From positions 1 through 42,971 of the IMG/VR virus record IMGVR_UViG_3300006793_000074: DNA of 42,971 nucleotides. One strand, 5' to 3'. Below, one piece after another: positions 8,578 through 37,381 of the stretch. The position numbers and the translations under genes are program-made. The DNA is from a virus. The notes under the pieces were generated by a model. It worked only from the letters and a program-made list of their open reading frames with translations. It made no database searches and was not told where the DNA came from. Position 1 is the stretch's first letter, and each line of letters begins with the position of its first letter.

Positions 8578-9891
8578 TTATGGCTTGTGGATCTCTTCGT
8601 AGATTATAGGGAAAAGTTCTCTGTAATCTGTTCCGCGTCTGCGATCCAGTTCAGTAAGATAACGATGTAATTCTTGTTGTTGAAACTTGTCAGGGGTTTC
8701 GTTTTCTATAGATTTTTTAATACCTTCAAAGTATGTGTGTGCTTTGCCAATAGACCCGTTTGCCGTGTCATTGCCGGCTATTTTGCTTAACTTATCTAGC
8801 GATTCATTGTAACCCCAATCTAGTATCTTGGATCCAAATATTCTAGGATGCATAAAATCTTTACCACTCACTTGCATTAAACTGATATTAATACCCCAGG
8901 GTCTGCCTGCCGCCACTGTTAAATCAGTCCATTCTTGGTATTTGTCTATTAATTCAGGCATAGTAAAAGTAGATATATTGGACCAACATATGTTAATGCT
9001 TCCCATTATTTTCTTACTTTTTATATTGGATATATATTTAAAATTTTTGTCAAACAGAGAAGTGTCGAGCCCAAACCTTACATATTCTGCTTGCTCGTTC
9101 CAGCAGTCAATACTACCAACAATACTTACTTCATATATTTTGCCATTCTCTGCTAACCCAACTAATCTGTCTATTTTTTCCTGTGCTTTGTCTGTTGACA
9201 AGTTACTAAAAAAATGTAGACGCATGTTTTTAAACTTGTCACCGCTATTGTCAATGAGATCTAGTAGCCGGTCAGATTGTGGCTGAATAAAAGGTTCCCC
9301 ACCTAAAATATACAAACTTCTAAGATATTGTCCTTTTTCTTCCAAGTACTCAAATACTTTGTCCAAATATTTTAATTCTTGGAAGTTCTCTTTGCCTGGC
9401 AAATCTGATGGTACCATAAAATTATGGATGTCACCGTATTTTTTATTTTCAGACTCCCATGTACTACTAAAGTGAGAACCACAGTAAGTGCATGATAGTT
9501 GGCAAAGGTTACTAAAATATATTTCAAGTTGTGTAGGAGTAACATGAACAGCATTTGGATCTTTTACTAATTCCACAGGTGATGAAGGTGCATACTCAAG
9601 TTCGTCATGCAACAATCTGTCACTCATGCCACCTGCTTGTTCAATAACTCTACAATGCTCACAGCCAAGTTCTGGCCATTCGTTTCGTAACATTTGTAAT
9701 CTTGCGTGTACTTTTTGGTGAGTATTATGGAAATCAAAATCCTCTGTGATTGGATTATGATCACACCTGTGGCAACTAGCAGTAGTGTTTGTCGTTAGAA
9801 AAACAGTACTAAGAGACCATTTTAATCTGCATTGTAGGTCAGATTGTTTTTCATTAATAATATTATTTTTGTGTACTTTTATAGTAGACAT
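8578..9891 (-). CDS. Radical SAM enzyme (twitch/SPASM-like cysteine cluster)
   Basis: A 437-residue protein with the radical SAM cluster motif CxxxCxxC at C130, C134, C137 (CQLSCTYC) and the SAM-binding GGEP at 197-200. Upstream of the core lie two further cysteine pairs, CHRC (about 40-43) and CEHC (77-80), likely ligands of an auxiliary iron-sulfur cluster as in twitch-domain enzymes. Such proteins are known from marine T4-like phages but their substrates are not. It follows the 124-residue unknown by one base and precedes the nuclease-like gene on the same strand. Frames on the other strand inside it are shadows. Confidence 0.85.
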   Translation of the reverse strand: MSTIKVHKNNIINEKQSDLQCRLKWSLSTVFLTTNTTASCHRCDHNPITEDFDFHNTHQKVHARLQMLRNEWPELGCEHCRVIEQAGGMSDRLLHDELEYAPSSPVELVKDPNAVHVTPTQLEIYFSNLCQLSCTYCGSHFSSTWESENKKYGDIHNFMVPSDLPGKENFQELKYLDKVFEYLEEKGQYLRSLYILGGEPFIQPQSDRLLDLIDNSGDKFKNMRLHFFSNLSTDKAQEKIDRLVGLAENGKIYEVSIVGSIDCWNEQAEYVRFGLDTSLFDKNFKYISNIKSKKIMGSINICWSNISTFTMPELIDKYQEWTDLTVAAGRPWGINISLMQVSGKDFMHPRIFGSKILDWGYNESLDKLSKIAGNDTANGSIGKAHTYFEGIKKSIENETPDKFQQQELHRYLTELDRRRGTDYRELFPIIYEEIHKP

Positions 9892-21888: not shown

Positions 21889-22938
21889 ATGAGAGCAACA
21901 GAATTTATAAACGAAGCAGTAGGCATTATTACAAAACAAAACGCTACAAAAGACGCTCCAATTGGAAGCGAGTTTGCTAATGTTAAAAAGTTAGGACTTG
22001 GTAGCGGAAAGCCAAAACTACCTACAAACGAAAACTTTGCTGACGGTAAGCAGTTTCGCGTAACCAAACAAAAAAATGGTTTTACTGTAGACTTATACGT
22101 AGACGGTAACCACGCAGGACAATATACACATACACGTAACGAAGATAATGTGCGTAACTTTGCAGAAATATTCCCAGAGTTTCGTAATAAAGGACACGGC
22201 GGCATGCTATTGTTAAAAGCAATAGCCACAGCAGACGATTTAGGTATGGACTTTGAAGAAGATTCACACAGTCTTACACCTGCTATGAGCAGATTATATG
22301 ATGAACTAGATGGCTCAGGTTTAATTTATGGTGGCGGTGGTGCTTGGACAATTAGTCCAACTGGTGAAGATGCTCTAGACGAATACCTAAGCGAAAACTT
22401 TAAAGACGGTAAAGTAAAAGGTAAGAAAGAAGTTTGGGAATCAGTAACTCCATTTGAAATCTTTAATCTGATTTCTAACATTCATACAGGACACAACGAC
22501 ATTGAAACGGACGAAGAGTTTCAGCAGTGGGTTGATTCTTTTGACAGATACGAACTCAAAGATATTCCGTTGTCTAAACTGACAGTGTCGCCATCAAACA
22601 TTAATCCAGACAAAGCAAAGTCTTATATAAAACAAAAGAATTCGCCGCCAATTGTAGTAGACGGTACAAACTATTGGATTATTGATGGACATCATCGTGT
22701 TGAAGCCGCATTGGCACGTGGTGACAAAACCATTAAAGGTTATGTTGGATTGAATGACCTTGACGAAAACTTTAAAGACGGTAAAGTAAAAGGTAAAAGC
22801 CGCCCAGGCAGAGTAAAACGTGCCGGCGCAAGTTGTAAAGGTTCTATAAGCAGCCTTAGGGCAAAAGCAAAAAAGTATAGCGGTGAGAAAGGCAAAATGT
22901 ATCACTGGTGTGCTAACATGAAATCAGGTAAAAAATAA
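21889..22938 (+). CDS. GNAT acetyltransferase-like / ParB-like chimera with leader and basic module
   Basis: A 349-residue mosaic. 1-10: leader MRATEFINE-A, a perfect processing-type site. About 55-160: GNAT-like fold with the acetyl-CoA loop FRNKGHGG (98-105). 168-179: linker ENFKDGKVKGK. About 222-290: ParB/sulfiredoxin-like domain with LTVSPSNINP and IIDGHHRVEAAL (264-275). 292-303: the linker again. 304-349: basic module RPGRVKRAGASC then YHWCANMKSGKK with C316 and C341. The linker repeat is exact at DNA level (33 bp), suggesting the ParB part was inserted by recombination. Activities are inferred from motifs only. Confidence 0.7.
   Translation: MRATEFINEAVGIITKQNATKDAPIGSEFANVKKLGLGSGKPKLPTNENFADGKQFRVTKQKNGFTVDLYVDGNHAGQYTHTRNEDNVRNFAEIFPEFRNKGHGGMLLLKAIATADDLGMDFEEDSHSLTPAMSRLYDELDGSGLIYGGGGAWTISPTGEDALDEYLSENFKDGKVKGKKEVWESVTPFEIFNLISNIHTGHNDIETDEEFQQWVDSFDRYELKDIPLSKLTVSPSNINPDKAKSYIKQKNSPPIVVDGTNYWIIDGHHRVEAALARGDKTIKGYVGLNDLDENFKDGKVKGKSRPGRVKRAGASCKGSISSLRAKAKKYSGEKGKMYHWCANMKSGKK
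22392..22424 (+). repeat. 33-bp direct repeat in the chimera gene, copy 1
   Basis: Identical to 22764-22796; encodes the ENFKDGKVKGK linker after the GNAT-like domain. The copies are 372 bases apart, a multiple of three, and flank the ParB-like domain, so recombination between them would remove that domain in frame. Confidence 0.9.
22764..22796 (+). repeat. 33-bp direct repeat in the chimera gene, copy 2
   Basis: Second exact copy, encoding the linker before the C-terminal basic two-cysteine module. See the copy at 22392. Confidence 0.9.
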
Positions 22939-22940
22939 TT

Positions 22941-24068
22941 ATGCCAGCAAGAAACTATAAACAGTGGAACAGGATTCCAGGTAAGATCAACAGTGGTGAG
23001 TATGTTGATAGTCGAATATATTCCGACAAAAAGATATTTGAAGAAGAAATTGAAAAGATATTTTCAAAGGTGTGGGTTCCAGTATGTCACGAATCTGAAC
23101 TACCTAAAACAAATTCTTTTCGTACAATGACTGTTGCGATGCAGCCAATCATTGTAGTTCGTATATCAGATAAAGAGATAAAGGCATATCATAACCAGAG
23201 TATCAGTCAACCTGCTGGCACATTAGCATTAGATATTTACGATGCTTCTCCAATCAGAACCGAAGTCAAGTATGGTGGATTCATATGGGTCACACTAAAC
23301 GAGGAGATGGACAAGACAGTTGAGGAGTGGGCATCAGGATCATTTGATTGTATGCAAAAGTCCCTAGACGCAGAACCGTTGGAGGTCTTTCACTATCACA
23401 AGGCCATCATACCTTGTAACTACAAACTTTGGCATGACACCAACTCGGAGTTTTACCATGACTATCTACACTACCACAATCGTGTAACAGGGTTCAATGA
23501 CTCCTACTTTGCTCGTAAGAATATTGGATTTGATAACGGACACATAAATGTAGGCTCATTTGAGGTTCAGTATGACCAGTATGAAGGTTCTGAATCTAGG
23601 GATGAGTTATCGTTTCCGCATTTACCTGCTAATCACTGGGAGATGATTGACTTCTTTCCTGGTGTCAACTTTAACCTACGAGGGTCAGCACTACGATGTG
23701 ACATTATGACACCAATTGCACCAGACAAGGTGATGATTGAGTTTCGTGGTCTAGGTCTAAAGAGTGACACACCGAAAGAGCGTTTGATTAGACAACGGCA
23801 CCACAATAGTATTTGGGGACCGTTTGGTCGTAACCTACATGAGGACTTACTTGCAGTAAGCACACAACAGGCTACAATGAATGAGTATGCGGATGCTCGC
23901 AGAATTCTACACGGCCGACATGAGGTTGATGCTGATGGTGATCCAACAATTCACGATGAGGAAGGTATGCGTCACTTTTATGATGAATGGGGCCAATGGA
24001 TGAATCGATGGGCAGGCAACCCCGACCTGACCTATAAAGAAGGAGTAAACGAGGGAATGATTGGGTAA
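22941..24068 (+). CDS. Rieske-type oxygenase catalytic protein lacking Rieske cluster ligands
   Basis: A 375-residue relative of ring-hydroxylating oxygenase alpha subunits. KVWVPVCHESELP (43-55), AYHN (82-85) and YGGFIWVTL (111-119) are landmarks of the N-terminal Rieske domain, but the CxH and CxxH ligand pairs that should lie between AYHN and YGGFIW are absent; that segment is some 50 residues short. The mononuclear iron site looks intact: DTNSEFYHDYLHYH with H173 and H177 or H179, and D302 in LHEDLLAVSTQQ. The codons look richer in G+C than the neighbours, hinting at recent transfer. No leader motif; gaps of 2 and 49 bases to its neighbours. Confidence 0.75.
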   Translation: MPARNYKQWNRIPGKINSGEYVDSRIYSDKKIFEEEIEKIFSKVWVPVCHESELPKTNSFRTMTVAMQPIIVVRISDKEIKAYHNQSISQPAGTLALDIYDASPIRTEVKYGGFIWVTLNEEMDKTVEEWASGSFDCMQKSLDAEPLEVFHYHKAIIPCNYKLWHDTNSEFYHDYLHYHNRVTGFNDSYFARKNIGFDNGHINVGSFEVQYDQYEGSESRDELSFPHLPANHWEMIDFFPGVNFNLRGSALRCDIMTPIAPDKVMIEFRGLGLKSDTPKERLIRQRHHNSIWGPFGRNLHEDLLAVSTQQATMNEYADARRILHGRHEVDADGDPTIHDEEGMRHFYDEWGQWMNRWAGNPDLTYKEGVNEGMIG

Positions 24069-24117: not shown

Positions 24118-24696
24118 ATGAAAATAGAAGAACTGCTTGAAACATTTGATAAACCATATCCGTTAAGCTGGGAAGAAGGCACGGGCGGCGATTCGATGGC
24201 ATTTACTAAACTACCTGATGGCACAACACTGCTTATTATGTTTAATCACGAAGGCACCGAGGAATATCAAGTAGAGTTTCACAGAGGTAATAGTCAAGAC
24301 GTAACTGGTGAGGGCGATGCTTACAGAATATTTGCTACAGTTTTAGATGCTATACAAAAGTTTATTAAAGAACGCAGTCCCGCAATGATATATTTCGCTG
24401 GTGAGAAAGGAAACACTGGCACAAATCCAAGCAGAACAAAACTTTATACTAGAATGGTACAAAAGTTTGCTAGTCAGTTAGGCTATAAAACACACATCGA
24501 AGACCAAGGTGACATGGTACAGTATGAGTTAACCAAACTAAATAAAGAAGTTAAAGAAAATATGAGCAAAACTGCTACTGCTATTAGGCGCAAAGAGCAT
24601 GAGTTAGGCTTGGAACCCGGAGATGAAGACTGGTTTAAACTATGGTTTACAAGACCGTTTTTATCCGGCCCGCCAAAACTTAGGAAAAAGAAATGA
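24118..24696 (+). CDS. Leader-bearing protein of unknown function
   Basis: A 192-residue protein starting MKIEELLE-T, like the capsid-targeting leaders around it. The body is one alpha/beta domain: a strand-rich half (GTTLLIMFNHEG, YQVEFHRG), then a helix and a strand with FAGEKG followed by RTKLYTRMVQKFASQLGY, a pattern I recall from uncharacterised T4-like phage proteins. The tail is basic (PPKLRKKK). AAAGG lies about 16 bases before ATG, and the stop overlaps the lysozyme start (ATGA). Function unknown. Confidence 0.6.
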   Translation: MKIEELLETFDKPYPLSWEEGTGGDSMAFTKLPDGTTLLIMFNHEGTEEYQVEFHRGNSQDVTGEGDAYRIFATVLDAIQKFIKERSPAMIYFAGEKGNTGTNPSRTKLYTRMVQKFASQLGYKTHIEDQGDMVQYELTKLNKEVKENMSKTATAIRRKEHELGLEPGDEDWFKLWFTRPFLSGPPKLRKKK

Positions 24697-25529
24697 GATT
24701 TGCACAAATACAACACCCTAACGTAAATTTTGTTTATGTTAATTTACAAGAGAGTGATTATCTGTTAAAATATACTGATAAGAGAGTATTTAAAAGAGAT
24801 TTAAACGAGCAAGAGCAGTGGATTGCTGATGGCTTGGTTAAGAAGGATATTCTCAAACGTGTAAAAGTTGAAGGCAACATAGCGTATATACGCAACTCTA
24901 AACTAGACGAGTCTCAAATACAAGTGTCACTATACAAAGATGTGTTAAACGAAGATTGGAAAAAGAAAGCAACTGGCGCAGTAGCAGGTGCGGCACTAGC
25001 CGTCGGTGGTGCTACAGCGGTAAAACAAAACACGCCACAGCCTGATCTACAAACAAAAACACAAGTAGTACAAACAATTGAACAAGATCCATACAATAAA
25101 GAGTTTGGTGATGTAAATGCTCTTAAGAATATGATTAAGCAACACGAAGGCAAACGCTTAAAAGTTTATAAAGACACGGTTGGCAAAGATACAATTGGAT
25201 ACGGACACTTGGTTAAACCAGGTGAAGACTTTTCCAAAGGTATTACAGACAAACAAGCAGACGAAATGTTTAATAAAGACTTCGATCATCACGTACAAGG
25301 TGCAAGAACAACTCCTGGCTATAGTTTAGCAGACCAAAAACGTAAGCAAGCAATGGTTGATTTGGCATATAACATGGGTCCGAATTGGCATAAGAGTTGG
25401 CCAAAGTTTTCAGCGGCCGCTAAGTCCGGTGACTGGAAAACAGCCGCAAAAGAACTACAAAATAGTAAATGGTATAAGCAAGTTGGCAATCGCGGTAATA
25501 CAATTGTCAATATGATTGCGGGCCAGTAA
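24693..25529 (+). CDS. T4-type lysozyme (GH24) with long N-terminal extension
   Basis: A 278-residue protein. The C-terminal 140 residues are a GH24 muramidase with catalytic triad E152, D161 and T167, exactly the 9- and 6-residue spacing of T4 lysozyme E11/D20/T26, in HEGKRLKVYKDTVGKDTIGYGH. The N-terminal 140 residues are extra: an alpha/beta part, VLNE-D at 85-88, and a glycine/alanine helix (AVAGAALAVGGATAV, about 96-110) that may insert in a membrane. This makes a virion-associated or membrane-anchored lysozyme as likely as a free endolysin. It overlaps the previous gene by 4 bases. Confidence 0.85.
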   Translation: MRFAQIQHPNVNFVYVNLQESDYLLKYTDKRVFKRDLNEQEQWIADGLVKKDILKRVKVEGNIAYIRNSKLDESQIQVSLYKDVLNEDWKKKATGAVAGAALAVGGATAVKQNTPQPDLQTKTQVVQTIEQDPYNKEFGDVNALKNMIKQHEGKRLKVYKDTVGKDTIGYGHLVKPGEDFSKGITDKQADEMFNKDFDHHVQGARTTPGYSLADQKRKQAMVDLAYNMGPNWHKSWPKFSAAAKSGDWKTAAKELQNSKWYKQVGNRGNTIVNMIAGQ

Positions 25530-30163: not shown

Positions 30164-30694
30164 ATGAAAATAGAGTTAACTGTTACCGGCGCGTTCTGTA
30201 ACACTTGGCCTGATCTTACCATACAGCAAAACGACAATGTCGTTTTTTGTAATGCTATAAAAAACACTACTATCATTAGTCTAACACTAGACTATGCCCC
30301 TTTTTCTGTGGGTATGCAAAATAAAAATTTTGGGAACAACAACGTGTGGGACACACTAGTAGATCAAGATAATAATATTCTAGCAGACAAATTAATTACT
30401 GTAAATGAATTTCTACTAGATGATGTAAGTATTTTGTCTTTACTACCATCAATTGAATACACAGACGCTTTGAGTTCAGCCTCGAAATTTATTACTGATT
30501 GCACAATAAGATACAATGGATTTTGGAAATTTGATATAAGTAGTAATGCTTATGATTATATTATAGATATTAAAAATAGTATGAATCACAATATCAAGAA
30601 AGAAGTCAATTATCAAAGCGATGTTTCTAATATTGGAAATTACGATGATCATTATGCTATTATGCAAAAAATAAAAAGTGCTTTAAATATATGA
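30164..30694 (+). CDS. Unknown protein between nuclease and radical SAM genes
   Basis: A 176-residue protein, beta-rich at the N-terminus (KIELTVTGAFCNTWPDLTIQ) and rich in N, D, Y and I. The C-terminal half is helical and asparagine-rich. The opening resembles small beta-sandwich or carbohydrate-binding folds, but no conserved site is evident. Its stop overlaps the ATG of the first radical SAM gene by 4 bases, so it is coupled to the radical SAM pair and could be their partner or substrate; that is speculation. Confidence 0.55.
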   Translation: MKIELTVTGAFCNTWPDLTIQQNDNVVFCNAIKNTTIISLTLDYAPFSVGMQNKNFGNNNVWDTLVDQDNNILADKLITVNEFLLDDVSILSLLPSIEYTDALSSASKFITDCTIRYNGFWKFDISSNAYDYIIDIKNSMNHNIKKEVNYQSDVSNIGNYDDHYAIMQKIKSALNI

Positions 30695-32178
30695 AAAATA
30701 TCGTAGTATCAATTCCGCAGATTGAAGTCCACCGCCCGCCTATCAGTACAGCAATTATTGCTAGTGTAATACAACACGAAAAACAAGAAGTAACATGCAT
30801 AGATTTAAATATCGAACTTTTTAAAAAAGTAGGCAATAAAGAATTTTATAATTTAGGTAACGTTTGGGAATCTCTTAGAGTAATAACTGACGAAGAAGTA
30901 AAGACCGTAAAGGAATTAATTAAAGATAAGTTAATATCAAACATCGACGACAACACAAGAGTGCTTATAAGTGTTTTCACTTATGATAGCCTTTTATTTG
31001 CTAAAATGACTTGCGAGGCAATTAGAGAACACACTGTAAAGTGCCAAATTGTATTGGGCGGACAAGGAGTTAACTCACCAGGTGATGCACGGAGTGGAAG
31101 GAAGAACAGTGGTGAATATTTCTTGCGTGAAAATTTGTGCGACTATGTTATTTTTGGCGAGGGAGAAACAGTACTGAAAGAGTTTTTAAGAGGAAATGTA
31201 ACCCATCCAGGCATTAATTATCCAGAGAACTTAAATCAAGTTAATGATTTAGACACACTCCCATTCCCCAACTATAAATTTTATAATTTGGATAATTACG
31301 ATTACTTAGAAGAAGAGACAGAGGTTAACATTGTAGGAAGTAGAGGGTGTGTTCGTAAATGTACGTATTGTGATGTTGGTCATTACTGGCCAAAATTTAG
31401 ATATAGATCTGGATATAACATTGCAAACGAAATGATTAATCATTATGAAAAACATGGCATTACTAAATTTTATTTTACAGATAGTCTAATTAATGGAAGT
31501 TTAAAAGCATTTAATAGCATGTGCGAAAAACTTGCAGTTTATAATCAACAGCACGACGTAGGCTTTAGTTGGAGCGGACAATTTATTTTTAAGCCCAAAC
31601 GACAAATATCAGATGAGTATTTTGACATGATTGCTGATGCCGGCGGCAATACTTTTTTTGTTGGTGTCGAAACAGGCAGTGATAAAATACGCTGGGAAAT
31701 GGACAAAAAGTTTTCCAATGAAGATATTGATTACCATTTAGAAAATTTTAAAAGAACAGGCCTGCGTTGTTTCTTTTTAATGATTGTTGGTTATTTAACA
31801 GAGACATTGCAAGACCATCGAGACAGTTTACAAATGTATGAACGCTGGCAAAAATATGTTGCTAGTGGAACTATAACGGGTATAGATTTAAACAAGACGC
31901 TGGATATCTTATCAAATACTCCATTAGAGAGAATGATAAGTTCGCATGGTGTGAAGTTTTTGTGTTACGAGAAAGATTTCACAGGAAAAAAAGGACCAGT
32001 TACTTCTACTTGGGAAAGCAGTGCTAATCCAGAATTAACTTTTAGGGAAAGAATAAGACGAAGATTGGAAGTCGAAGATACAGCAATTAAATACAGATGG
32101 CCTATTATTCGAGGAACAGAAAGATTACAAGGCGTATATAATCTTTCAAAACTTTTTGTTGAACAAGAAAATGTATGA
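30691..32178 (+). CDS. Radical SAM enzyme with B12-binding-type N-terminal domain
   Basis: A 495-residue protein. Residues 1-190 form a Rossmann-type domain (strand IVVSIP, then VLISVFTYDS and CQIVLGGQGVNS, DYVIFGEGE) as in cobalamin-binding radical SAM enzymes, although the classical DxHxxG base is not evident. The cluster motif CxxxCxxC is C220, C224, C227 in GCVRKCTYC. A TIM-barrel part with FVGVETGSDKIR (about 323-334) follows. The substrate is unknown. Members act as methyltransferases, methylthiotransferases or cyclases. It overlaps the next radical SAM gene by 8 bases, indicating a two-enzyme operon. Confidence 0.85.
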   Translation: MKNIVVSIPQIEVHRPPISTAIIASVIQHEKQEVTCIDLNIELFKKVGNKEFYNLGNVWESLRVITDEEVKTVKELIKDKLISNIDDNTRVLISVFTYDSLLFAKMTCEAIREHTVKCQIVLGGQGVNSPGDARSGRKNSGEYFLRENLCDYVIFGEGETVLKEFLRGNVTHPGINYPENLNQVNDLDTLPFPNYKFYNLDNYDYLEEETEVNIVGSRGCVRKCTYCDVGHYWPKFRYRSGYNIANEMINHYEKHGITKFYFTDSLINGSLKAFNSMCEKLAVYNQQHDVGFSWSGQFIFKPKRQISDEYFDMIADAGGNTFFVGVETGSDKIRWEMDKKFSNEDIDYHLENFKRTGLRCFFLMIVGYLTETLQDHRDSLQMYERWQKYVASGTITGIDLNKTLDILSNTPLERMISSHGVKFLCYEKDFTGKKGPVTSTWESSANPELTFRERIRRRLEVEDTAIKYRWPIIRGTERLQGVYNLSKLFVEQENV

Positions 32179-33448
32179 TTATAAAGATATTACTGCTATA
32201 CAAATTGAAATAACTGAAAAATGTAACGCGGCGTGTCCTTCGTGCAGTAGAACACATTATGGTTACGGTGAACTAGCAGGAATTTATCAAAAACATATGT
32301 CGCTAGATGAGTTCAAAGTCTTATTGCCAGAGCATATGGTTAGTAATTTAGATATGGTAGTTTTTTGTGGTAATGTTGGAGACGCACAAACAAATCCTAA
32401 TTTGCCTGCGATGGTAGAGTATTTGTATTCTAGTAACAATAGCGTTCATATGAATATTAATACAAACGGAGGTATGCGTAGTACTGATTATTGGGCCAAC
32501 TTTGCAAAGTACAAAAATCTTAAGATATGGTTTGCCGTAGATGGTACAACGCAGGAAGTACATTCGTATTATAGACAAAACACAAATCTAAGCAAAGTAT
32601 TAGAAAACGCCAAAGCATATATAGATGCAGGCGGTAATGCGGTGCTACAGTTTATACTGTTTGAGCACAATCAACATCAATTGAAAGACGTTGAAAAATT
32701 AGTAAAAGATTATAAATTTACAGAACTAGAAATTATTAATACAGATAGAGCAGACAATACTCCAGTATACAACAGCAAGGGAGAATACAGAGGGCAACTG
32801 CGTGGCGCAACAACTAGCGAGTATAATAATTTCCTCACTGCTGAAACAGAAAATATTAAAAATAATTTGCAAGATCCGGATGTGTCAATTGATCAGATTG
32901 ATATTAAAAATTATACGAACTTTTTAAACATAACACACGAAAAATATATCAATCAAGATAGATCGTGGGAAGAAGAAGTAGAAAAATTTGATTGGGCTCG
33001 TAGTAGCCTTGCGAATGTTGCTAATATTAGTAATTACAAAGATGTAGATATTAACAAAGTCCTTCGTGGAATTTCAAACGAAAAAAAGAATAATAGAAAG
33101 ATAGATTGTTTGGCCATACGAGAATCTAAAGTATTCATCACAGCAGACGGATTTGTTTATCCTTGTTGTATGATGGGACACAATCATACTAGAATTGCTA
33201 ATGCATATACTTACGATATTCAAGCCTTGTTAAAAGAATTTGGCTACAAGAATGACGTTAATAACGCCTTAAAATATGGCGGTATAGAAGAAGTATTTAA
33301 AACAGGTTTTTTTGATACTATAGCAAATACTTGGATTCCCCACACTACGGAAAATGATTTTCTTCGCACTTTTAATAAAGAATACAGCGATTGTGGGAAT
33401 TTAAATATGTGTGCTATGGCCTGTAGCAACTGTGATTATAACGCCTAA
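32171..33448 (+). CDS. Radical SAM/SPASM-type enzyme
   Basis: ATG 32171 is chosen; an upstream TTG at 32156 would only add five residues. The protein is 425 residues. The cluster motif is C18, C22, C25 (CNAACPSC) in the ITEKCN context typical of SPASM-type enzymes. C-terminal cysteines (PCCMMGHNH; then CGNLNMCAMACSNC at the end) are the expected ligands of auxiliary iron-sulfur clusters. SPASM enzymes often modify peptides or sugars. It overlaps the B12-type enzyme by 8 bases and ends just before the tailspike late promoter. Confidence 0.85.
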   Translation: MYDYKDITAIQIEITEKCNAACPSCSRTHYGYGELAGIYQKHMSLDEFKVLLPEHMVSNLDMVVFCGNVGDAQTNPNLPAMVEYLYSSNNSVHMNINTNGGMRSTDYWANFAKYKNLKIWFAVDGTTQEVHSYYRQNTNLSKVLENAKAYIDAGGNAVLQFILFEHNQHQLKDVEKLVKDYKFTELEIINTDRADNTPVYNSKGEYRGQLRGATTSEYNNFLTAETENIKNNLQDPDVSIDQIDIKNYTNFLNITHEKYINQDRSWEEEVEKFDWARSSLANVANISNYKDVDINKVLRGISNEKKNNRKIDCLAIRESKVFITADGFVYPCCMMGHNHTRIANAYTYDIQALLKEFGYKNDVNNALKYGGIEEVFKTGFFDTIANTWIPHTTENDFLRTFNKEYSDCGNLNMCAMACSNCDYNA

Positions 33449-35410: not shown

Positions 35411-35439
35411 GTGACATCATGTCACTTTTGTAGTATAAT
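35411..35439 (+). promoter_or_regulatory. sigma70-type promoter with palindromic operator for the reductase
   Basis: GTGACA (one mismatch to consensus), 17-base spacer and TATAAT (35434-35439). The -35 lies in a perfect palindrome GTGACAT-C-ATGTCAC (35411-35425), a likely repressor or activator site. Transcription should start near 35446, giving a short leader with AAAGGA before ATG 35465. The rest of the 165-base spacer (35300-35410) is AT-rich, with no other convincing element. Confidence 0.75.
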
Positions 35440-35464
35440 GTTAGAACAGTTTAAAGGATCAATA

Positions 35465-37381
35465 ATGACAACACACCAATTACCCACCCTATATCAGCAG
35501 TATATTCACTTATCAAGATACTCTCGTTACAGATATGATGTTAAACGTAGAGAAACATGGGAAGAAACAGTTAATAGATATTTTGACTTTTTCCAACAGC
35601 ATTTAGAAGAACAATGCGGATATAAGATTCCAGCAGGCTTAAAAACACAACTGACAGAATCAGTTTTAAACTTAGAAGTTATGCCATCAATGCGTTGTCT
35701 TATGACAGCAGGTGAGGCATTACGCAGGGAGAATATTGCAGGCTACAACTGCTCTTTTGTCGCCATTGAAACACCAAGAGCATTTGATGAGATTTTGTAT
35801 ATTTTAATGAATGGCACAGGCGTTGGATTTAGTGTTGAAAGACAAATGGTTAATGAGATGCCACGCATTGCTGATGACTTCCATGATACTGAAACAACTA
35901 TAGTTGTAGCAGACTCAAAATTAGGTTGGGCAAAAGCACTTAAAGAACTTATTCATTTGCTATACGGCGGACAAATTCCACAGTGGGACTTATCAAAAGT
36001 TCGCCCAGCAGGCGCACCACTAAAAACATTTGGCGGTAGAGCATCAGGTCCCGGACCACTAGAAGATTTATTTCATTTTTGCGTAGGTATTTTTAAAGGT
36101 GCCGCTGGTCGCAAATTATCATCTTTGGAATGTCATGACATTACATGTAAGATTGCTGAGATTGTTGTAGTTGGCGGTGTACGCCGTTCGGCACTTATTT
36201 CACTATCCAATCTAAGTGATGATAGAATGAGACATGCTAAAGCAGGGCAATGGTGGGAAACACACACCCAACGAGCATTAGCAAACAATTCCGCTTGTTA
36301 TACAGAGAAGCCGGATGTTGGTATCTTTATGGAAGAATGGAAGGCACTGTATGACTCCAAATCAGGAGAGCGTGGTATCTTTAACAGAGCCGCCGCGCAG
36401 GCAGTTGCATCTGCAAGTGGGCGCAGAGACCCAGAGCATGACTTTGGTACTAACCCTTGCAGTGAAATTATTTTAAGATCGGAAGAATTTTGTAATTTAT
36501 CCGAAGTAGTAGTTCGTCCAGATGACAACTTAGAAACTTTAAAAAACAAAGTTATTAATGCAACTATCTTGGGCACAATGCAATCAACACTTACAAATTT
36601 TAAATATTTAAATAAGCGTTGGGAAAATAATTGCCAAGAAGAAAGACTACTAGGCGTGTCATTGACAGGCATTATGGATAATGCTTTGACTAATGGTAAA
36701 AAGAAAGGATTAAGAGAACTACTAACAGAACTTAAAGAAGTAGCAGTTGCAACAAACAAAGAGATTGCTTCAAAGTTAGGTATTGCTCAATCAGTTGCTA
36801 TTACATGCGTTAAACCAAGTGGCACAGTTAGCCAACTAGTTGACAGCGCAAGTGGTATTCACGCAAGGCACAATCCTTATTATATTAGAACTATTCGCGC
36901 TGATAAAAAGGATCCACTTGCTAAGATGATGCTAGAAGCAGGCTTTCCAGTAGAGGACGATGTAACAAAACCAGACCACACTTATGTTTTCTCATTCCCA
37001 GTTAAAGGTCCTAAGAACGGTGTGTACCGTAAAGACATGACCGCTATTGAGCAACTAGAGTTATGGAAAGTATATCAAGAATCTTGGTGCGAGCATAAAC
37101 CATCAGTAACTATTACTGTTAAAGAGCATGAATGGATGGAAGTTGGCGCGTGGGTATATAATAATTTTGATATGATGTCAGGAGTTTCGTTCTTACCGTT
37201 TAGTGATCACACATATAGGCAAGCACCGTATCAAGACTGTACAGAAGAAGAATATAAAGAAATGTTAGCAAGCATGCCAAAAGATGTTGACTGGGCATTG
37301 TTGAGTGAATATGAAGAACAAGATATGACCACTAGTTCACAGGAACTAGCATGTGCGGCAGGTGGATGCGATATTATTTAG
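35465..37381 (+). CDS. nrdJ: Adenosylcobalamin-dependent ribonucleoside-triphosphate reductase (class II)
   Basis: ATG 35465, preceded by AAAGGA, gives 638 residues; an in-frame start inside the operator is rejected. The protein follows monomeric class II reductases: C95 (GYNCSF), GTGVGFSVERQ (117-127), thiyl C332 and E334 in NPCSEI, redox C343 in FCNLSE, PSGTVSQL later and a C-terminal C630/C635 pair (CAAGGC) that reduces the active-site disulfide. It makes deoxynucleotides for phage DNA synthesis from host cobalamin without oxygen dependence. Glutaredoxin follows 13 bases later, an obvious functional pair. Confidence 0.93.
   Translation: MTTHQLPTLYQQYIHLSRYSRYRYDVKRRETWEETVNRYFDFFQQHLEEQCGYKIPAGLKTQLTESVLNLEVMPSMRCLMTAGEALRRENIAGYNCSFVAIETPRAFDEILYILMNGTGVGFSVERQMVNEMPRIADDFHDTETTIVVADSKLGWAKALKELIHLLYGGQIPQWDLSKVRPAGAPLKTFGGRASGPGPLEDLFHFCVGIFKGAAGRKLSSLECHDITCKIAEIVVVGGVRRSALISLSNLSDDRMRHAKAGQWWETHTQRALANNSACYTEKPDVGIFMEEWKALYDSKSGERGIFNRAAAQAVASASGRRDPEHDFGTNPCSEIILRSEEFCNLSEVVVRPDDNLETLKNKVINATILGTMQSTLTNFKYLNKRWENNCQEERLLGVSLTGIMDNALTNGKKKGLRELLTELKEVAVATNKEIASKLGIAQSVAITCVKPSGTVSQLVDSASGIHARHNPYYIRTIRADKKDPLAKMMLEAGFPVEDDVTKPDHTYVFSFPVKGPKNGVYRKDMTAIEQLELWKVYQESWCEHKPSVTITVKEHEWMEVGAWVYNNFDMMSGVSFLPFSDHTYRQAPYQDCTEEEYKEMLASMPKDVDWALLSEYEEQDMTTSSQELACAAGGCDII

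Follow-up and report, generated by a model that had tools for sequence, protein, structure and literature searches.

The gene at positions 22941-24068 (+) of the viral DNA analysed here, a stretch of 42,971 nucleotides that we call the window, raises the question of what a phage can do with a ring-hydroxylating oxygenase alpha subunit that keeps its mononuclear-iron site and is missing the CxH/CxxH segment of the Rieske cluster. The open reading frame encodes 375 aa. Ring_hydroxyl_A (PF00848) was matched by Pfam at residues 147-355 (E 1.5e-9), and Rieske (PF00355) at residues 45-85 only, corresponding to profile positions 2-41 of 88 (E 6.7e-5), that is, to the first half of the domain. When the protein was compared by phmmer with solved oxygenase alpha subunits, most matches ended at residue 85-90, the expected position of CxH. 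The N-terminal arm and what is left of the Rieske-domain scaffold strands (residues 1-82; 22941-23186, +) could be aligned with solved alpha subunits up to residue 87, and in an AF2 single-chain model (pLDDT 86.6, pTM 0.88) the local pLDDT was mostly 92-97 from residue 21 and mostly above 90 over residues 21-90. The base strands of the Rieske domain were kept in this model, and the extra strands that belong to the cluster part of the cellular parent were absent. Foldseek returned the alpha subunits of terephthalate dioxygenase and carnitine monooxygenase (CntA) as top matches (prob 1.00; 16-20% identity), both of which have complete Rieske domains. No PHROGs family was assigned to the protein, and NCBIfam gave weak, partial matches, all far under the cut-off. 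Membership in the oxygenase family, as proposed by an earlier sequence-only reading of the window, was borne out by Pfam, Foldseek and alignment.

The same reading had described an intact mononuclear-iron site, and this was also confirmed, with YHDYLHYH and LHED both present. Residue conservation delimited an active-site segment, N160-R181 (NYKLWHDTNSEFYHDYLHYHNR; 23418-23483, +), which contains the iron ligands H173 and H177 and, three positions before the first iron histidine, the bridging acidic residue E170. It also delimited a carboxylate ligand segment, NLHEDLLAVSTQ (residues 298-309; 23832-23867, +), with E301-D302, where D302 is presumed to be the third iron ligand. The PF00848 domain of the window protein is predicted to bind iron through a 2-His-1-carboxylate set of H173, H177 and D302. 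Across the clades the first motif reads YHD[YF][LM]H, and the second His of the window motif (H179) is replaced by Phe in many relatives.

Alignment with intact MsmA and the partial Rieske match located the missing part and agreed with the earlier statement that the CxH/CxxH ligands are gone and landmarks of the N-terminal domain remain. The parental segment, ...FLN-VCPHRGNMLENRPSGSFEEASPSGAPKHITCMFHAWQFDMKGNCAHISRATEGYQDRLECKDVGLRR-LRCEVKYGGF, corresponds in the window protein to ...YHN-QSISQPAGTLALDIYDASP-IRTEVKYGGF, so that both ligand loops are lost. About 68 residues of the parent are reduced to a linker of about 20 residues; what reads CPHRGN...TCMFH...GLRR in the closest bacterial homologues is a short linker in the phage protein. 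This hypervariable linker (residues 83-106; 23187-23258, +) stands in place of the CPHRG-X26-CMFH... subdomain and carries a remnant of the parental spacer, P[SA]G, which almost every viral form still has. What is left of the parent comprises the base of the Rieske domain and the complete catalytic domain with its iron site. The cluster ligands were not relocated to any other part of the window protein chain, as an oxygenase with ligands elsewhere would require, and a six-frame CxH/CxxH scan of the window gave chance-like matches only. Among the window ORFs scanned, Pfam found no Rieske protein, ferredoxin or matching reductase.

To define the parent, a scan of genome contigs was carried out, which gave 178 relatives, and the best 80 of the 178 were analysed. 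CxH-X26-CxxH, with a spacer of exactly 26 residues, was found in 77 of these 80 closest cellular loci; the exceptions are L047, where a single residue of the motif is masked, and L113 and L117, which are short copies of the virus type. According to PMC4433239, CXH-X26-CXXH is the MsmA signature of Henriques and De Marco, and the window protein lacks it. Pfam analysis of L045 and L106 revealed msmA followed by a ring-hydroxylating beta subunit, a Rieske ferredoxin and a ferredoxin-FAD-NAD reductase, which is the msmABCD order, and the L061 operon resembles this type by its sequence. The window protein was 80% identical to L042 over aligned residues, its catalytic domain was 86-88% identical to those of L042 and L045, and phylogenetically it sits inside MsmA, together with L040, L042, L048 and L052. 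Sequence comparison thus identifies MsmA, the large (alpha) subunit of methanesulfonate monooxygenase, as the parent of the phage protein. This closest cellular family (msmABCD) has CxH-X26-CxxH and the partners msmB, msmC and msmD, whereas the phage protein is without all of them.

L113 and L117 lie on contigs of bacterial MAGs (labelled Rickettsiales SAT45 and Hellea) and carry the viral, Rieske-less msmA. The idea that they represent a Rieske-less MsmA of cells was rejected, as their msmA falls inside the HMO-2011 viral clade and the neighbours of L113 look phage-like; they are probably viral sequence binned with bacterial genomes. L113 also carries a glutaredoxin and ORFs resembling ribonucleotide reductase subunits, and L117 an SbmA/BacA-like transporter.

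Relatives were recovered from IMG/VR by two protein-guided scans, on 38 contigs in the first and on at least 511 in the second. We studied 215 viral loci, 191 of which cover the ligand region, and CxH-Xn-CxxH was present in none of these 191. A DNA pattern for the catalytic motif matched at least 120 IMG/VR contigs. A second pattern, written for the segment as it stands in intact MsmA, matched none, and it does recognise most of the cellular loci. The deletion, for which other phages had been proposed as a check, was found in every covering viral locus, and the ligand gap is thus neither a sequencing error nor chance. MsmB, MsmC and MsmD were found in none of the 215 related viral loci and not among the window ORFs scanned. 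The large internal deletion relative to the cellular homologues might also point to a decaying or misassembled gene, with a pseudogene-like loss and no function; this is scarcely credible and was excluded, with an open frame, a catalytic-domain dN far below dS and the same architecture in 191/191 viral loci. In about 16 viral loci (e.g. L140:676-981), a small cysteine-containing protein, by eye a candidate A-type iron-sulfur carrier of the IscA/HesB kind, was seen near the Rieske-less msmA.

Conservation within the protein was strongly uneven. E170, H173, H177 and their neighbours were identical in all 192 viral and all 66 cellular sequences, and E301/D302/Q309 in all 178 viral sequences covering that segment. 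Between the catalytic domains of the window protein and L001, both of viral group A (see below), 33.5 synonymous changes were counted against 6.5 nonsynonymous ones, and in other viral pairs the catalytic-domain dN was likewise far below dS, indicating that this domain is under strong purifying selection. Segment 160-181 matched the cellular consensus at 92-96% in viruses and 94% in cells, whereas the match of the remaining Rieske scaffold was 51-67% in viruses versus 77% in cells, so this part is more relaxed; divergence in residues 1-82 outpaced that in the catalytic domain. The only cell-conserved positions that none of the three viral groups retained were those in or close to the excised part (E68, R81, L84 and this part itself) and D169 (window E121), near the domain boundary, which was the sole catalytic-domain site at least 90% conserved in cells to be lost in all three viral clades. 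No new active-site residues common to the viral clades were found.

These invariant catalytic residues argue, at the level of sequence, against a pure inhibitor or a structural role and for an iron-dependent reaction; binding of a metal or a ligand, with no turnover, could also account for the conserved active-site residues. The same evidence bears on the suggestion that the phage chain is dominant-negative, joining host MsmA trimers and blocking electron transfer to the neighbouring iron site. An alpha-only gene without partners, a catalytic domain 86-88% identical to host-type sequence, and a precisely lost cluster with the scaffold retained are all what such a subunit would show. An inhibitor, however, needs neither iron ligands nor a bridging acid, yet both are invariant in 192 viral sequences, and the catalytic domain is under strong purifying selection; we consider this suggestion unlikely. 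Its supposed benefit, a slower methanesulfonate oxidation that would spare NADH and O2 or prevent the build-up of formaldehyde and sulfite, is doubtful to a similar degree.

Another possibility is that the protein has become a reductase-independent 2-His-1-carboxylate Fe(II) oxygenase, in which the substrate or a small-molecule reductant gives all the electrons. The iron site is indeed kept while all electron-transfer parts are absent, and viral copies of separate source are all without the cluster. On the other hand, the catalytic domain is almost the same as that of host MsmA, the viral clades have no common new active-site residues, and the bridging acid to the Rieske histidine is kept, so that we find this change of chemistry rather improbable.

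The linker behaved very differently from the catalytic domain. There were 128 distinct linker forms among 192 viral sequences, and mean viral identity was 27% in the linker versus 75-96% in the catalytic domain; even where two viral proteins matched at 97% or more over most of the catalytic domain, linker identity was 58%. In cells, by comparison, conservation is higher in the cluster subdomain (78%) than in the N-terminal stretch next to it (72%). Such hypervariability is like that of a surface loop under relaxed or diversifying constraint, and it could accord with a non-catalytic protein that binds or sequesters metal or sulfonate or is associated with the virion; in HMO-2011, a virion structural protein is encoded four genes away. 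The catalytic residues are nevertheless completely conserved, and the genomic position varies by phage type, which does not indicate a fixed structural module, making a non-catalytic role quite improbable. The sequence-only reading had listed another electron source, another reaction or a binding function for the protein; all three remain, and the invariant catalytic residues favour the first two.

To trace the origin of the viral genes, trees of the catalytic domain were examined, which resolved three viral groups. Group A (the window and L003) is nested with gammaproteobacterial MsmA, group B comprises L006, L007, L010, L011, L013 and L014, and group C contains HMO-2011 and most other viral sequences. 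With the N-terminus and catalytic domain together, the window grouped with four gammaproteobacterial MsmA at a support of 99/97. A single viral clade was rejected with the catalytic domain (p 3e-94) and also when the N-terminus was added (p 8e-4); on its own, the N-terminal alignment of 81 columns was compatible with one viral clade (p 0.216). Because a single viral clade is rejected, msmA was acquired by viruses at least twice, and the trees show that marine phages took it from two or more bacterial MsmA lineages. The data establish two viral origins and not a third, since groups A and B as one clade were compatible with the data (p 0.126 and 0.242). Most simply, loss of the cluster segment would likewise have occurred two or more times; given the common P[SA]G architecture, one deleted linker may instead have been spread by recombination. 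It is a tentative possibility, and a somewhat doubtful one, that phages repeatedly converted MsmA to a one-iron subunit by independent excision and plugged it into the host methanesulfonate system via a host Rieske protein in trans, with the loss of the cluster as a selected, convergent adaptation.

The gene was also found to move among unrelated genomes. The window phage and phages of the L006 and HMO-2011 types have almost no genes in common besides msmA. The msmA of L003 is 95% identical to that of the window, yet essentially no other gene is common to both, most linker positions differ between the two, and L004, which comes from a window-type phage, carries the L003 linker. This pattern suggests transfer of msmA between phages with rapid change of the linker. 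A separate observation concerns the ribonucleotide reductase of the window (35411-37381, +), which matches the B12-dependent (class II) insertion-domain model and shares about 64-70% identity with its counterparts in HMO-2011 and two phages of the L006 type, while the rest of the genomes differ.

Composition and context at the window locus were then compared with earlier claims. A recent gain had been proposed for the gene, which was described as richer in G+C than its neighbours. Its GC3 was indeed unusual (39% versus 29%; z 2.2, rank 2 of 54), while its GC was raised only slightly (42.4%, with 37.6% as the average over genes; z 1.2, rank 6 of 54). In cellular relatives the GC is 48-53%. Such values fit a bacterial gene that has adapted in part to its phage genome, and are weak evidence for recency. 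Nesting in gammaproteobacterial MsmA and the raised GC3 speak for the recent gain, and membership in widespread, mobile viral clades speaks against it. The placement among head-associated genes was not borne out, as the flanks are not clearly head genes: the upstream neighbour (349 aa; 21889-22938, +) has a ParB-like nuclease domain (Pfam PF08857; PHROG ParB-like) and a weak GNAT-like match and lies outside the oxygenase system, and downstream (24118-25529, +) Pfam identified a DUF6934-like protein and a phage lysozyme and no MsmB, MsmC or MsmD. No tRNA was found in the window. Three radical-SAM proteins were noticed in it, at 8578-9891 (-), 30691-32178 (+) and 32156-33448 (+).

With the built-in electron relay cut out, the viral copies cannot by themselves do the work of the usual enzyme. 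In Rieske non-heme iron oxygenases the alpha subunits are arranged as alpha3 trimers. Normally, electrons from the cluster of one subunit go to the adjacent one via the bridging acid (PMC12445004). Retention of this acid in the phage protein suggests that a Rieske cluster still docks and is supplied in trans, and since no electron donor is encoded in any of the viral loci studied, such delivery would require a host protein. A precedent is NdmC of the caffeine-degrading NdmCDE system, which, having no Rieske cluster itself, works with an additional Rieske domain that NdmD carries (PMC4408171). As judged from the description of NdmC, the phage protein is similar in having the iron site and no Rieske cluster, and differs in keeping the base of the Rieske domain. 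The partners of NdmC are the reductase NdmD, with its extra Rieske domain, and the GST-like NdmE, and the phage gene comes with neither: no co-encoded reductase or Rieske protein was found in the window or the viral loci, and no GST-like partner by Pfam among the window ORFs.

We infer, tentatively, that the phage protein is best explained as an active iron subunit, similar to NdmC, that is fed in trans by a Rieske protein of the host. It would fold as an alpha subunit with one Fe(II) per chain and would catalyse oxygenation of methanesulfonate or a close relative, with electrons crossing the subunit boundary from a host Rieske cluster. The donor might be the host Rieske ferredoxin MsmC, inserting at the place of the missing subdomain, or intact host MsmA chains in mixed trimers, and in either case E170 would make the usual contact to the donor cluster. 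The phage might thereby gain a subunit that requires a single iron rather than three, with no iron-sulfur cluster to be assembled in the infected cell. What does not fit this docking model is the hypervariable linker beside the presumed docking site, where a conserved docking surface would be expected.

Absence of the motif was reported in 2015 for HMO-2011 (a SAR116 phage), for virome sequences and for one of two MsmA-like SAR116-host proteins, in PMC4433239, which also describes HMO-2011 gp61 and other viral 'MsmA' without the Rieske motif, citing Kang et al. 2013. Among the SAR116-family genomes in our analysis, a close MsmA was found in the original genome G001 only, and it was intact by pattern. 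HMO-2011 gp61 is 58% identical to the window protein over 96% of the length and, like it, misses the same segment, has the same catalytic residues and is an alpha subunit alone; gp61 differs in coming from an unrelated phage and in falling into another viral clade. In the literature available to us, we found no earlier report of the origin from at least two bacterial MsmA lineages, the lack of any intact viral copy, the invariant iron site and the variable linker, or of the presence of the gene in unrelated phages without MsmB, MsmC or MsmD.

The feature is common to hundreds of marine viruses, and viral msmA has been counted as a methanesulfonate-degradation gene (e.g. PMC10134843). If every viral copy is without an internal relay, 'sulfur-cycle' inferences from viral msmA need revision, and the viral protein would act only with host partners, do something else, or inhibit. 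As a natural set of Rieske-less oxygenases with at least two origins and a known cellular parent, these proteins would provide a test of a trans-driven iron site beyond the single NdmCDE precedent.
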